Of a DNA stretch of 64,000 nucleotides, positions 32,037 through 63,862 are shown one piece after another; within the stretch, counting starts at the first letter, position 1, and each line of letters opens with the position of its first letter. The translations under genes were made by a program, and so were the position numbers. The stretch comes from an uncultured Poribacteria bacterium (GTDB lineage Bacteria > Poribacteria > WGA-4E > WGA-3G): NCBI GenBank assembly GCA_951828385.1, contig OX639973.1, forward strand, positions 3,773,200-3,837,199, read 5' to 3'. Below the pieces are notes generated by a model. It saw only the letters and a list, made by a program, of their open reading frames with translations. It was not told where the DNA came from and did no database searches.

Positions 32037-32492
32037 TATAGTAAAGTTTAGAATTAATTGGGCACTTTCAAACAGTCTGAATACCTATAACAGGCATTCA
32101 GACTGGCACAAACTGGAAGTTTATGCTACAAAGATGCACAAACTGGAAGTTTATGCTACAAAGATGCACAAACTGGAAGTTTATGCTACAAAGATGCACA
32201 AACTGGAAGTTTATGCTACAAAGATGCACAAACTGGAAGTTTATGCTACAAAGATGCACAAACTGGAAGTTTATGCTACAAAGATGCACAAACTGGAAGT
32301 TTATGCTACAAAGATGCACAAACTGGAAGTTTATGCTACAAAGATGCACAAACTGGAAGTTTATGCTACAAAGATGCACAAACTGGAAGTTTATGCTACA
32401 AAGATGCACAAACTGGAAGTTTATGCTACAAAGATGCACAAACTGGAAGTATGTGGTACGAATGTGTCTATTTATTTTTAGGATTCACTATA
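32037..32492 (-). mobile_element. Family A MITE-like element, copy 4, expanded
   Basis: It has TATAGTAAAGTTTAGAATT at the left and GGATTCACTATA at the right, so it is in reverse orientation. Its normal internal CACAAACTGGAAGTTTGTG palindrome region has been amplified into a 12-copy tandem array, making the element 456 bp. Confidence 0.9.
32107..32466 (-). repeat. 30-bp tandem repeat, 12 copies
   Basis: Units of CACAAACTGGAAGTTTATGC plus TACAAAGATG repeat from 32107 with a 30-bp period; copies 1-11 are identical and the 12th diverges. There are no spacers, so it is not a CRISPR. Because 30 is a multiple of 3, open frames span the array on both strands but are artefacts. Confidence 0.97.
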
Positions 32493-59793: not shown

Positions 59794-59999
59794 TTACGCC
59801 TATCAATGTCTCCAATCCGTTTGTAAGGTGAGAATTACTCTACGGCTAAGTATACTTAAAAAATTGGGGAATGTCAAGGACTTCTGTGCCACCAGATTCT
59901 TGAACAAAACTGTTCATAAATTGGACAGTAAAAATAATACGGTTGTCTAATATTCAGTGAAAACCCGCTTTCAGAGGTATTTTGCGCCTGAATTGCCTT

Positions 60000-60015
60000 T
60001 GGCATGGAAATTGCT
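60000..60015 (+). promoter_or_regulatory. Sigma-54 promoter, copy 1
   Basis: TGGCAT (60000-60005), GGAAA, TTGCT (60011-60015) match the -24/-12 consensus TGGCAC-N5-TTGCW with correct spacing. A family A element is inserted 9 bp downstream at 60024, near the expected start site. A second copy is at 63743. Confidence 0.8.
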
Positions 60016-60023
60016 CAGTATAT

Positions 60024-60149
60024 TATAGTGAAGCCCATAAATAAGTGGACATCTTTGTAGCATAAACTGTTAGTTTGTGCCAGTCTGAATGCCTGTTATA
60101 GGTATTCAGACTGTTGGAGAGTGCCCAATTAACTATAGATTTTACTATA
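60024..60149 (+). mobile_element. Family A MITE-like element, copy 9
   Basis: A standard 126-bp copy from TATAGTGAAGCCCATAAAT to GATTTTACTATA. Comparison with the sigma-54 leader at 63.7 kb, which lacks it, gives the empty site: TATTAAACAACGCTGAG there, TATAT then element then AAACGCTCAG here. This is consistent with insertion at TA with TA duplication. Confidence 0.9.
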
Positions 60150-60165
60150 AAACGCTCAGTAAAAC

Positions 60166-60241
60166 CTGGGAAAGCCTACCTCCTTGGGGAAATACGGAGC
60201 GATGCAAAGGCTTTCCCAGATCTCAATTGCTGCATCGCTCC
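60166..60241 (+). ncRNA. Structured 5' leader RNA (pseudoknot), copy 1
   Basis: Segment A (CTGGGAAAGCCT, 60166-60177) pairs with A' (AGGCTTTCCCAG, 60208-60219), 12 bp. Segment B (GGAGCGATGCA, 60196-60206) pairs with B' (TGCATCGCTCC, 60231-60241), 11 bp. The order A-B-A'-B' gives an H-type pseudoknot or two exclusive hairpins. The region between A and B holds a small CCTCC/GGGG stem-loop. The copy at 63786 keeps all pairings with compensatory changes. It lies between a sigma-54 promoter and a lipoprotein gene, whose ATG is 43 nt further on. No known riboswitch family was recognised. Confidence 0.8.
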
Positions 60242-60283
60242 ATCTATCTATCTGTCTGTACTGTGTGCAAAGGAGAAAGAATC

Positions 60284-60676
60284 ATGAAGAGATGGAAAAG
60301 TCTACTTTTTATTCTCGCATGTCTATCACAGATTAGCTGCGCGGCACTCTTAACGGAACAAGAGTATGTCTTGATTGATCGTCCGGTGAGTGAAAAGGCA
60401 ACTTTCAACGGCGAAATTTATTCACTTCCAGAAAGCGCGAGCATTCGGAAGGTTGTGCTGCTCGGCTCTGGAAAAATCCGAAACATTGAAATTCACGTAC
60501 GTGACAAGCGAAATCAATGGGAACCGGTCAAGAAAGTACCCGGCGGCATCGAATTCCCGTTTGAAATCTCACTTATCGCCGAGACAGACGCTATCAAAAT
60601 TATAAAACACGCAATGACTGGAGCCGGGCGCATTGAGACGGTTCAATTTTACACGGTTGCTGATAAAGGAAATTAA
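60284..60676 (+). CDS. Small lipoprotein of unknown function
   Basis: A 130-residue protein with lipoprotein signal MKRWKSLLFILACLSQISCA, cysteine at residue 19. The rest is predicted beta-rich (YVLIDRPVSEKATFNGEIYS, RKVVLLGSGKIRNIEIHVRD). AAAGGAG lies before the ATG at 60284. It is expressed from the sigma-54 promoter with the pseudoknot leader. It is followed by two TolB-like propellers and a LamG protein, likely one regulon. In-frame sequence upstream of 60284 translates the leader and is not protein. Confidence 0.75.
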   Translation: MKRWKSLLFILACLSQISCAALLTEQEYVLIDRPVSEKATFNGEIYSLPESASIRKVVLLGSGKIRNIEIHVRDKRNQWEPVKKVPGGIEFPFEISLIAETDAIKIIKHAMTGAGRIETVQFYTVADKGN

Positions 60677-60775: not shown

Positions 60776-61774
60776 ATGAAAGGTAAACTTATCTATACCC
60801 CGTTGCGGACAACAGTGATATTCGTGTATTTCCTACTTGCGATGGGATTTTATGCACAAGCATCTGATCCTACACATATCGTCTTCACTTCTCCGAGAGA
60901 GGGGAACGCTGAAATTTACATCATGGATATAAACGGGAAGAATCTTCGGAACCTTACAAACCATCCAGCACATGATTCTCAACCAGCGTTTTCACCCGAC
61001 GGACGTTGGATGGCTTTTGTTTCTAATCAGAGTGGCACTAACAGAATTTATCTGATGAATAGGAATAACAACGTAATCCGTCCATTAACGAACCATCTGA
61101 GATCAACAGGAGATTTTGATCCCAATTGGTCGCCGGATGGACAGTGGATTGCCTTTACGTTCAGAAAAGGGGAGGGGCCAGCGTCTCAATATAACATTTA
61201 CAAAATCAATGTCAACAGCGGAGACCTGCAGCAACTTACAGACACCAAATACAATAGGGATCCTGCATGGTCGCCGGATGGAGACCGAATTATGTTCTTT
61301 TCTGATGGAAAAGAGAGACATGATCTCTATGTGATGAAGGCGAATGGGAAAGGTTTAAGACGCGTTATAGTAAGGAATCCCGGGGGATACAGTCCTGCGT
61401 GGTCGCCGGATGGAAAACAGATTGCCTATGAGCGTTTGGGGCTTGAGGGACGAGGCATTTATATCATGACTGCAGAGGGGCAACACGACCAGAGAGTGAC
61501 ACCGAAAAATACATGGGGTGAGAATCCTGCGTGGTCGCCGGATGGACACTGGATCGCCTATGAGTTAGAACTTGTAAGTCCGTGGGGTAACCCAAATCGA
61601 GATTCAAATATCTATCTTGTCAGTCCTGACGGTGCCGAAACTCGTCAATTAACACAGCATCCGGCAAGGGATCGTTATCCTGCGTGGGTGCCAGAGAATT
61701 TTCTCTCTGTGTCGCCGACCGCCGAGAAGCAAACGACCCTCTGGGGTAGGCTGAAGCAGTCTGGTAGCGATTAA
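60776..61774 (+). CDS. Secreted TolB-like propeller with C-terminal TWG tag, copy 1
   Basis: A 332-residue protein with a signal peptide (about 1-30, ending YAQA). PD40 blades carry repeated WSPDG (PNWSPDGQWIAFTF, PAWSPDGDRIMFFS, PAWSPDGKQIAYER). The C-terminus is GFLSV-like followed by QTTLWGRLKQSGSD. TTGGAG lies before the ATG at 60776; a TTG five codons earlier overlaps the Shine-Dalgarno and is not preferred. It shares family and tag with the gene at 62624. It probably acts at or outside the cell surface. Confidence 0.85.
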   Translation: MKGKLIYTPLRTTVIFVYFLLAMGFYAQASDPTHIVFTSPREGNAEIYIMDINGKNLRNLTNHPAHDSQPAFSPDGRWMAFVSNQSGTNRIYLMNRNNNVIRPLTNHLRSTGDFDPNWSPDGQWIAFTFRKGEGPASQYNIYKINVNSGDLQQLTDTKYNRDPAWSPDGDRIMFFSDGKERHDLYVMKANGKGLRRVIVRNPGGYSPAWSPDGKQIAYERLGLEGRGIYIMTAEGQHDQRVTPKNTWGENPAWSPDGHWIAYELELVSPWGNPNRDSNIYLVSPDGAETRQLTQHPARDRYPAWVPENFLSVSPTAEKQTTLWGRLKQSGSD

Positions 61775-61832
61775 ATTAAAGCAGGCATCACCTTTTTCGC
61801 ACAATTTTTCGCACAATATAAGGAGATTAAAA

Positions 61833-62627
61833 ATGATACACCGACACATCCTCATCTCTCTCTTTTTACTAATATTAATCCCACTGAGTGCTAAAGCACT
61901 ACCACCCCCTTCACCAGCAGGCGGCGGTATGTTGAAACTGGATGAAAACCACGATTTCGTTGCGACGGTTGAGGCGTGGTTTCCCAATAAACAGTTCAAG
62001 GGATTGACCGCAGAAGCATGGATATATTTTCAAGAACCACCGCAACCCCTCAGTTTTTGGTCAATTATTGGGCAAGAAGGGCGATTCAATCTGGTTATTC
62101 ATGGTAATGGTGGCACGTTAGGTGCATGGGGATACGACGAAGATGCGAACGGAGGTCCAATAGTTGCCGGCGGTACACCACTGCCCAAAGAAGAATGGGT
62201 GCACGTCACAGCAATTTATGATGCATCAGCGGGGAAAGGATTTAACGGAAAGGGCGGCAATTGGTGCTGCCCAGGTGGTCATCTCATCAAATCAGACAAG
62301 CCATTTCGTATCGGCGGTATCATCTTCCAAGATCCGGAACAAGTGCGGTTTGGTGGGGAAAATGTGAAACTTCGGGGTTATATTGATGAAGTCCGAATTT
62401 CCAATATCGTGCGATATGTCGGACCGGAGTGGGAGGTACCTAAAGGAAGATTCGAGGTCGATAAACATACCATTTCGCTGTGGCATTTCGATGAAGAAAC
62501 CGGTTTTAACCGTTTCAAAGATGCGTCCGGAAATGGACATCATCTCTGGAGGAGCGGTGTTATTGGCAGTTTGGCTGTTGAAGCAGAAAGAAAACTCACA
62601 ACCACATGGGGACAACTTAAGCGATGA
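61833..62627 (+). CDS. LamG-domain exported protein with C-terminal TWG tag
   Basis: A 264-residue protein with a signal peptide (about 1-22), one LamG domain (AEAWIYFQEPPQPLSFWSII, KEEWVHVTAIYDASAGKGF, LRGYIDEVRISNIVRYVG) and the end KLTTTWGQLKR. AAGGAG lies before the ATG at 61833. Its stop overlaps the next ATG by 4 bp (ATGA), so the two are coupled. It is the same fold as the tagged LamG protein at 38.9 kb. Confidence 0.87.
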   Translation: MIHRHILISLFLLILIPLSAKALPPPSPAGGGMLKLDENHDFVATVEAWFPNKQFKGLTAEAWIYFQEPPQPLSFWSIIGQEGRFNLVIHGNGGTLGAWGYDEDANGGPIVAGGTPLPKEEWVHVTAIYDASAGKGFNGKGGNWCCPGGHLIKSDKPFRIGGIIFQDPEQVRFGGENVKLRGYIDEVRISNIVRYVGPEWEVPKGRFEVDKHTISLWHFDEETGFNRFKDASGNGHHLWRSGVIGSLAVEAERKLTTTWGQLKR

Positions 62628-63559
62628 AACAAAAACTTACCTATATTGTGTCGGGAACAATTATACTATTAGGATGCTTTCTGCTTACGGTAAACCTTTG
62701 GGCACAAGCATCTGACGTTACGCACATTGCCTTCGTTTCTCGGCGAACAGGGAATAGTGACATCTACATTATGGATATAAAAGAAAAAAATATCCAAAAC
62801 TTCACAAACCACCCAGCATGGGACTTTTCTCCAACCTTCTCGCCCAATGGCCGATGGATGGCTTATGTGTCCGACCGAGATATTTATCTGATGAATTTAG
62901 CAGCAAAAGAGCGTCACCGGTTAACAGAAGGTCGGAGCCCTGACTGGTCCCCAGACGGTGAATCTATTGTCTTTGTCTCCAGTCGATCAGGTCAGTCTAA
63001 TATCTACAAAATGAATGTCAACGGCGAAGCGGTTCAACAACTGACAAACGAGGGAAGTAATGACAGTCCATCGTGGTCGCCGGACGGTGAATCAATTATT
63101 TTCAGTTCCAATCGGGATCACGGAATATTTTTGTCGGTCTACGTGATGACTGCCGATGGAAGAAGGCAAAGGAGGCTGGCAGACGGGAGCAGTCCGGCGT
63201 GGTCTCTCGATGGCAAACAGATTGCCTATATTTTAGATATTGCGGGAAGTGGCGTTTATGTTATGAACGCAGAAGGCAAAAACAGTCGGCGGTTGACACC
63301 GGAAAATACATGGAGCGAGAGTCCGGCGTGGTCACCGGACGGTCAATGGATTGCCTATGGAACAGAACTTGAAAACCCATGGGGAAACCAGAATCGAGAT
63401 TCAAATATTCATCTCATCAGTCCGATTGGTGGCAAATCACGGCAATTAACAGACCATCCTGCGCTGGATACTTTTCCGGTGTGGGTGCCTTCTGGTTTTC
63501 TCTCCGTTTCTCCAACTGTGAACACACAAACGACTTTGTGGGGCAAACTGAAGCAGTGA
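62624..63559 (+). CDS. Secreted TolB-like propeller with C-terminal TWG tag, copy 2
   Basis: A 311-residue protein whose start codon overlaps the previous stop. It has a signal peptide (about 1-28, ending WAQA) and PD40 blades (PDWSPDGESIVFVSSRSG, PSWSPDGESIIFSS, PAWSPDGQWIAYG). It ends TQTTLWGKLKQ. It is close to the product at 60776 but has its own residues; the last blade segment and tag (GFLSVSPT, TTLWG) are nearly the same, so the two genes are a duplication. Confidence 0.87.
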   Translation: MKQKLTYIVSGTIILLGCFLLTVNLWAQASDVTHIAFVSRRTGNSDIYIMDIKEKNIQNFTNHPAWDFSPTFSPNGRWMAYVSDRDIYLMNLAAKERHRLTEGRSPDWSPDGESIVFVSSRSGQSNIYKMNVNGEAVQQLTNEGSNDSPSWSPDGESIIFSSNRDHGIFLSVYVMTADGRRQRRLADGSSPAWSLDGKQIAYILDIAGSGVYVMNAEGKNSRRLTPENTWSESPAWSPDGQWIAYGTELENPWGNQNRDSNIHLISPIGGKSRQLTDHPALDTFPVWVPSGFLSVSPTVNTQTTLWGKLKQ

Positions 63560-63742
63560 AAATAAGTATCACGTTTTTCATATTAGAAAGTTTGACTCCG
63601 ATTGATCTTGATTACGAAAGCTGCACCTCTTCGGGCATTTTTTAAACTGTTTCGCCCCTTTTTGTGCAATTTTGCGGCGTACTCGCCCAAATGCGACGTG
63701 CATTAACAGCCATCATACCAAGATTATGGACATATTTGGCAT

Positions 63743-63758
63743 TGGCATGAAAATTGCT
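63743..63758 (+). promoter_or_regulatory. Sigma-54 promoter, copy 2
   Basis: TGGCAT (63743-63748), GAAAA, TTGCT (63754-63758). The -24/-12 spacing is the same as at 60000. The sequence after it (AACATATTAAACAACGCTGAG) aligns with copy 1 with the family A element removed. Confidence 0.8.
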
Positions 63759-63785: not shown

Positions 63786-63862
63786 ATGGGAGAGCCTTTC
63801 TCCTTGGAGAAACACGGAGCGATGCGATCGGCTTTCCCATATCTCACTTGCCGCATCGCTCC
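63786..63862 (+). ncRNA. Structured 5' leader RNA (pseudoknot), copy 2
   Basis: A (ATGGGAGAGCC, 63786-63796) pairs with A' (GGCTTTCCCAT, 63830-63840) with one G-U pair. B (GGAGCGATGCG, 63816-63826) pairs with B' (CGCATCGCTCC, 63852-63862). Compared with copy 1, the outer A pair changes C-G to A-U and the end pair of B changes A-U to G-C. A TCTC/GAGA hairpin lies between A and B. The gene it controls is beyond the window edge. Confidence 0.8.

Follow-up and report, generated by a model that had tools for sequence, protein, structure and literature searches.

A probable sigma-54-driven, structured mRNA leader ahead of lipoprotein-like genes in a genus of Poribacteria

Two leader copies and their genes

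The window, by which we mean the whole 64,000-nucleotide stretch of Poribacteria DNA analyzed here, contains both leader copies found in its genome, which is assembled as a single 6.66-Mb contig. Since there were just two genomic copies, the idea that the leader is a repetitive element was rejected. Each copy consists of a promoter of the sigma-54 type followed by two pairs of complementary arms in the order A-B-A'-B', and lipoprotein-like genes follow both leaders, that of copy 2 outside the window. The two promoters, the arm order, and the presence of surface lipoprotein genes downstream were the main claims of an earlier sequence-only reading of the window. The promoter motif TGGCAT-N5-TTGCT was confirmed at 60000-60015 and 63743-63758, the arm order and stem lengths (A, 12 or 11 bp; B, 11 bp) were confirmed by coordinates in both copies, and the three pairing-preserving differences named in that reading were all found when the copies were aligned. 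The reading had missed the anti-Shine-Dalgarno (anti-SD) block, the activator site, the inserted element, the cassette behavior, and the similar RNA elsewhere, all of which are described below. The features are as follows.

59901..59916, plus strand: copy-1 activator site TGAACAAAACTGTTCA, a palindrome located 98 bp upstream of the -24 box
59999..60015, plus strand: sigma-54 promoter of copy 1, TTGGCAT-GGAAA-TTGCT
~60026-60150 (approximate ends), plus strand: inserted repeat element, copy 1 only, splitting the promoter from the structure
60166..60177, plus strand: 5' arm of stem A, copy 1, pairing with A' over 12 bp
60179..60187, plus strand: anti-SD-like block CCUCCUUGG of copy 1, in a small hairpin separating A from B, with 0-3 substitutions per column
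60196..60206, plus strand: 5' arm of stem B, copy 1, pairing with B' over 11 bp
60208..60219, plus strand: 3' arm of stem A (A'), copy 1
60231..60241, plus strand: 3' arm of stem B (B'), copy 1
60270..60275, plus strand: Shine-Dalgarno sequence (SD) AAGGAG of the copy-1 gene
60284..60676, plus strand: lipoprotein-like protein of 130 aa, without a Pfam match
60797..63559, plus strand: TolB-like PD40 propeller, Laminin_G_3 protein, and second PD40 propeller, downstream of the lipoprotein-like gene
63742..63758, plus strand: sigma-54 promoter of copy 2, TTGGCAT-GAAAA-TTGCT
63786..63796, plus strand: 5' arm of stem A, copy 2, pairing with A' over 11 bp
63799..63807, plus strand: anti-SD-like block UCUCCUUGG, copy 2
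63816..63826, plus strand: 5' arm of stem B, copy 2, pairing with B' over 11 bp
63830..63840, plus strand: 3' arm of stem A (A'), copy 2
63852..63862, plus strand: 3' arm of stem B (B'), copy 2; the served gene lies beyond the window, past another inserted element

The product of the copy-1 gene was predicted to have a beta-strand-rich fold behind an N-terminal helix, and a fold search with it returned only generic beta-sandwich matches, with query TM-scores below 0.5. A possible operon comprises this gene and the three downstream genes. The copy-2 gene (~64061-64450) starts ~60 nt past the end of the window and encodes a lipoprotein-like paralogue, also of ~130 aa. The two products are 69% identical, indicating that the window copies arose by tandem duplication and are not independent cases.

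The element inserted in copy 1 is ~126 nt long and was found neither in copy 2 nor in the orthologues, where the structure directly follows the promoter. Its palindromic hairpin, AACT-N3-AGTTTGTG, had 43 matches in the window compared with 0.3 expected, and a longer piece of the element recurs in other loci, so that it represents a genomic repeat. About a dozen AACTTCCAGTTTGTG palindromic repeats with 30-nt spacing, which form the same kind of hairpin, were also seen at 32107-32455 of the window. In copy 2, an insertion lies after the structure and before the gene. No terminator was found in the copy-1 leader, which makes transcription attenuation unlikely.

Promoter, activator site, and distribution in the genus

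Both window promoters showed GG-N10-GC spacing in a consensus context (-24 GG, -12 GC), and a sigma-54 motif was present upstream of 52 of the 56 leader copies that were collected at E ≤ 1e-5 among the extracted loci. A sigma-70-like candidate overlapping the copy-1 promoter (TTGGCA-16-TATTAT) was rejected, its second hexamer entering the insertion in a region that is unconserved in other copies. The genome of the window encodes one RpoN, and the sigma-54 activator domain of enhancer-binding proteins gave ~13 strong matches in it. The activator palindrome of copy 1 has the general form TGAACAAAACTGT(T/C)CA, also written TGAACAnnnnTGTTCA, and with at most one mismatch it was found in 28 of 52 leader upstream regions but in only 0.3% of shuffled regions. 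Its matches lie mostly at -95 to -98. Class 1 copies carry it 95-98 bp before the -24 box, and class 3 copies carry it at other distances. Class 2 leaders, including copy 2 of the window, have no palindrome of the TGAACAAAACTGTTCA type and have a different conserved upstream block of their own. The motif, the RpoN and enhancer-binding proteins, and the palindromic site together support the earlier proposal of sigma-54 control. The promoter region resembles known sigma-54 units with enhancer-binding proteins in its GG-N10-GC element, the palindrome ~100 bp upstream, and the presence of RpoN and ~13 activators, and differs from them in the addition of a structured leader.

The same palindrome also occurs, with unchanged spacing to a sigma-54 promoter, ahead of a TonB-like gene at G000:4501568 lacking this kind of leader, suggesting that the reach of the activator is wider than that of the RNA. 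The suggestion of a regulated regulon in this lineage gained ground to this extent, with leaders of three classes and one TonB-like gene with the common activator site as its candidate members. Sites of the sigma-54 type were also seen upstream of groES, of an Hsp20 gene, and of more envelope protein genes (names read from the sequences). In the genome of the window, the Hsp20 gene has three tandem promoters of this type (L141:3534-3640) and groES has one (L145:985), and judging from these motifs heat-shock genes may be under sigma-54 there.

When 85 Poribacteria genomes were searched at the DNA level, leader copies were recovered in 32, every one of them in the genus of the window. The covariance model suggested by the sequence-only reading did find further copies in related genomes, covering 33 of the 38 genomes of the genus and adding the divergent class 3, which occurred in three genomes. 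In the 47 other Poribacteria genomes, neither DNA nor covariance-model searches gave a convincing copy, and the weak matches (E 0.2-1) resembled chance. A pattern of a sigma-54 site plus CCTCCTTRGG, searched over GTDB species, returned 55 stretches from Poribacteria and a single archaeal MAG, the latter being about what we estimate for chance. Three short-pattern matches in viral contigs were taken as chance. The comparison with Rfam, also suggested earlier, matched no riboswitch or leader family: scans of the window and of the copies gave chance-level matches only, with nothing at or above the gathering threshold. Our literature search found no account of Poribacteria riboswitches or of sigma-54 pseudoknot leaders.

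Many genomes of the genus have two copies per contig, each usually preceding the gene for a paralogous ~130-aa protein. Several genomes have the unit that runs from promoter to SD and start codon joined instead to genes for PD40-type propellers, LamG-type proteins, or other signal-peptide proteins. The joining to varied exported-protein genes suggests that promoter, leader, and SD behave as one functional unit. Spacing within the unit is nearly constant: A mostly lies 15-18 nt after the predicted transcription start, and mostly 17-21 nt separate the modelled core from the SD. The leaders often precede further genes on the same strand. The served proteins, probably exported, may face the host sponge.

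Stem pairing and the geometry of a possible pseudoknot

The A-B-A'-B' helices are kept in the relatives, with part of B lost in some second copies. Among 49 sequences, 90.4% of the stem cells formed standard pairs, compared with 32-49% when the 3' partners were slid by 1-3 columns. An R-scape-like test of mutual information, which takes the tree into account and uses simulated null alignments, found no individually significant pair among 53 sequences (best stem pair 61:90, E about 7), because the alignment varies too little. We also counted inferred substitutions on a paired background and took the expectation from the substitution spectrum of the other columns. In this aggregate test, pairing was kept by 66 of 113 stem substitutions compared with 46.7 expected (p < 1e-5), with p = 1e-5 for stem A and p = 0.003 for stem B. 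Four of the six slid controls were non-significant, but one reached p = 0.04 and another (+1) p = 0.002, so the aggregate p-values should be taken with reserve. Class 3 leaders showed double changes, AGAGCAATGCA/TGCATTGCTCT and GAGAACC/GGTTCTC. Selection on stem pairing is supported by these sequence comparisons. The sequence-only reading had called the differences between the window copies direct evidence of a conserved structure. That wording was too strong for two paralogous copies, no single pair being significant; the aggregate test nevertheless favors the conservation.

The tandem duplication of the window copies and the non-significant single pairs would also be expected if the leaders were neutral copies of a duplicated intergenic stretch with no RNA function. 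That reading is largely refuted already by the substitution test and the cassette behavior, and the presence of copies in 33 genomes, the kept spacing, and the conserved CUCCUU block (see below) also speak against it, leaving it very improbable in our view. We are instead highly confident, on comparative grounds, that the leader is a real, genus-specific, and uncatalogued structured mRNA leader driven by sigma-54. It would place two layers of control, a structured RNA and an activator-dependent promoter, on the same genes in an uncultured phylum of sponge symbionts.

The distance from the end of B to A' is 0-3 nt, and 10-12 nt of loop separate A' from B'. These lengths allow an H-type pseudoknot with stacked stems, in which A and B are formed together. 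An additive energy estimate, comparing the pseudoknot plus a penalty with the best nested fold, came out in favor of the pseudoknot for 49 of the 53 sequences with a penalty of 9.6 kcal/mol and for 39 with one of 14 kcal/mol. Between the two options offered by the sequence-only reading, a pseudoknot or a switch between two hairpins, the estimate thus leans to the pseudoknot, with both stems able to coexist, though it does not amount to proof.

SAM-II and preQ1 are translational riboswitches with an H-type pseudoknot fold. The Poribacteria leader resembles them in having a predicted 5'-leader pseudoknot near the SD and no terminator. It differs in that both stems are ~9-12 bp long, the SD lies outside the pseudoknot, loop 1 holds an anti-SD hairpin, no ligand is assigned, and the promoter is of the sigma-54 type. 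A metabolite riboswitch with this architecture could account for the compact fold and its fairly well conserved loop, UCUCAAUUGC, immediately upstream of the SD. The downstream genes are non-metabolic, however, the loop conservation could be structural, and no Rfam similarity was seen; we consider a riboswitch improbable.

The anti-SD block and a second RNA beside rtcB

The most conserved element of the leader is not a stem but the CUCCUUGG block between A and B, which is complementary to the AAGGAG SD of the served genes. The CUCCUU columns had 0-2 substitutions each and the flanking GG 3 each, compared with means of 3.3 for stem A and 2.6 for stem B and up to 12 for many loop and flanking columns. 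In folding models of both window copies, the block fits a small hairpin. Of 36 distinct leader-served genes, 25 had AAGGAG as the SD, and of the 446 remaining genes in these loci, 49 did, an enrichment among related sequences within a genus that is not independent evidence. The 3' end of the 16S rRNA of the organism is CACCTCCTTTC.

The long surface-protein mRNA might simply be protected by the pseudoknot, acting as a 5' stabilizer that blocks decay from the 5' end without any switch. The position of the structure, mostly 15-18 nt from the predicted 5' end, its high predicted stability, and the further same-strand genes often found downstream are consistent with such a role. However, it leaves unexplained both the conservation of CUCCUU above that of the stems and the common AAGGAG of the served genes, and we regard it as unlikely.

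Pairing of CUCCUU with AAGGAG would enclose B and cross A, and we therefore propose a switch between SD-free and SD-masked forms. By sequence comparison, the cassette that is conserved in the genus and mobile between genes comprises the activator palindrome, the promoter, A, the CUCCUUGG hairpin, B, A', B', a short linker, and AAGGAG. From the activator-dependent sigma-54 promoter, a cis-acting mRNA leader of ~130 nt would be transcribed, ending at the SD of the lipoprotein-like gene. With A and B in the H-type pseudoknot, the CUCCUU block would be kept inside its hairpin and the SD would be free. Alternatively, CUCCUU would pair with the AAGGAG of the gene it precedes; this pairing can coexist with B and crosses A, and in this form (B plus CUCCUU:AAGGAG) the SD would be masked. 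Production of the protein would then require both an active sigma-54 activator and an open RNA. Nested folding gave strong SD:CUCCUU pairing in a minority of sequences only, and a few second copies have CUCUUU, CCGCCUU, or CCACCUU without a matching change in the SD. We accordingly put forward pseudoknot-gated SD masking as a plausible working model that may well prove wrong. The combined statement, of an mRNA leader induced through sigma-54 and equipped with a pseudoknot that governs access to the SD in cis, is our leading explanation and seems to us about evenly balanced. If the switch is true, SD masking would be gated by a pseudoknot in a compact cis arrangement, which would point to the activator and the signal that induce these genes.

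A search for the pattern of a sigma-54 site with CCTCCT behind it revealed a second RNA, located downstream of rtcB (rtcB being read from the protein) and often convergent with an oxidoreductase gene.

G000:C1:2307850-2308024 (L148:3360-3526), minus strand: rtcB-linked RNA, also found in L151-L178 and L180-L234

This RNA is single-copy, ~150 nt long, and sigma-54-driven, and it was recovered family-wide, from 33 of the 38 genomes in the genus and from 17 of the 18 in a sister genus. It has a 5' hairpin (GCCU-CCUU-RGGU), a T-arm-like GGTTAGAATCC stretch, a long closing stem, and a T-run, and from these features it looks like a stand-alone small RNA. Consensus folding recovered the 5' hairpin only, the alignment of the 3' half being poor. 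An Rfam scan gave chance-level matches only. A Y RNA reading is not put forward, there being no Rfam match and no Ro60/TROVE-domain gene in any of the 37 genomes of the genus of the window that were tested. Such genes were found in 14 of 18 genomes of the sister genus g4 (L280-L287).

The similar CCUCCUURGG hairpin near the 5' end of the rtcB-linked RNA, in as many genomes of both genera, raises the question of whether the CCUCCUUGG hairpin binds a trans-acting factor for which the leader and the rtcB-linked RNA compete. CsrA and Hfq, the factors looked for, were not found, and regulation by either was rejected. The covariance model of the leader failed to match the rtcB-linked RNA, so that homology between the two is not supported, and their activator sites differ, the rtcB-linked RNA having its own conserved inverted repeat, TGTCTATTTTTT...AAAAAATAGGCA, upstream of the sigma-54 site (e.g. 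L180). We consider such competition quite unlikely.

Anti-SD hairpins acting in trans are known from the alphaproteobacterial sRNAs alpha-r14/NfeR1 and cuckoo/CcsR, in which an ultraconserved CCUCC-type motif is exposed in hairpins, and the CcsR RNAs are transcribed from a stress (RpoH) promoter (PMC10746234, PMC10253847). The Poribacteria leader shares the CCUCC-type anti-SD motif in a hairpin. In contrast to these free trans-acting sRNAs, with CCUCCUCCC in NfeR1, it carries CCUCCUUGG within an mRNA leader, in another phylum and without an Hfq match. The leader was also not assignable to the cuckoo/alpha-r14 type, which has CCUCCUCCC motifs, a terminator, and a free sRNA: it has no terminator, a coding gene follows it, and its motif is CCUCCUUGG.

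Returning to the cis-acting switch, a similar anti-SD RNA beside rtcB would mean that the same module is also employed in trans. As a speculative extension that we hold to be rather doubtful, one CCUCCUURGG hairpin module might serve Poribacteria sigma-54-driven RNAs both in cis, in the pseudoknot-gated leader, and in trans, in the small RNA next to rtcB, so that a sigma-54 network would have a shared translational layer without Hfq. In a genome of another Poribacteria family (G012, L150, minus strand, ~1400-1545), we observed a sigma-54 site followed by CCTCCTTGGGG, a stem AGGGAGCCA/TGGCTTTCCT, and then an SD, behind which lies a gene resembling that of a TonB-dependent receptor.
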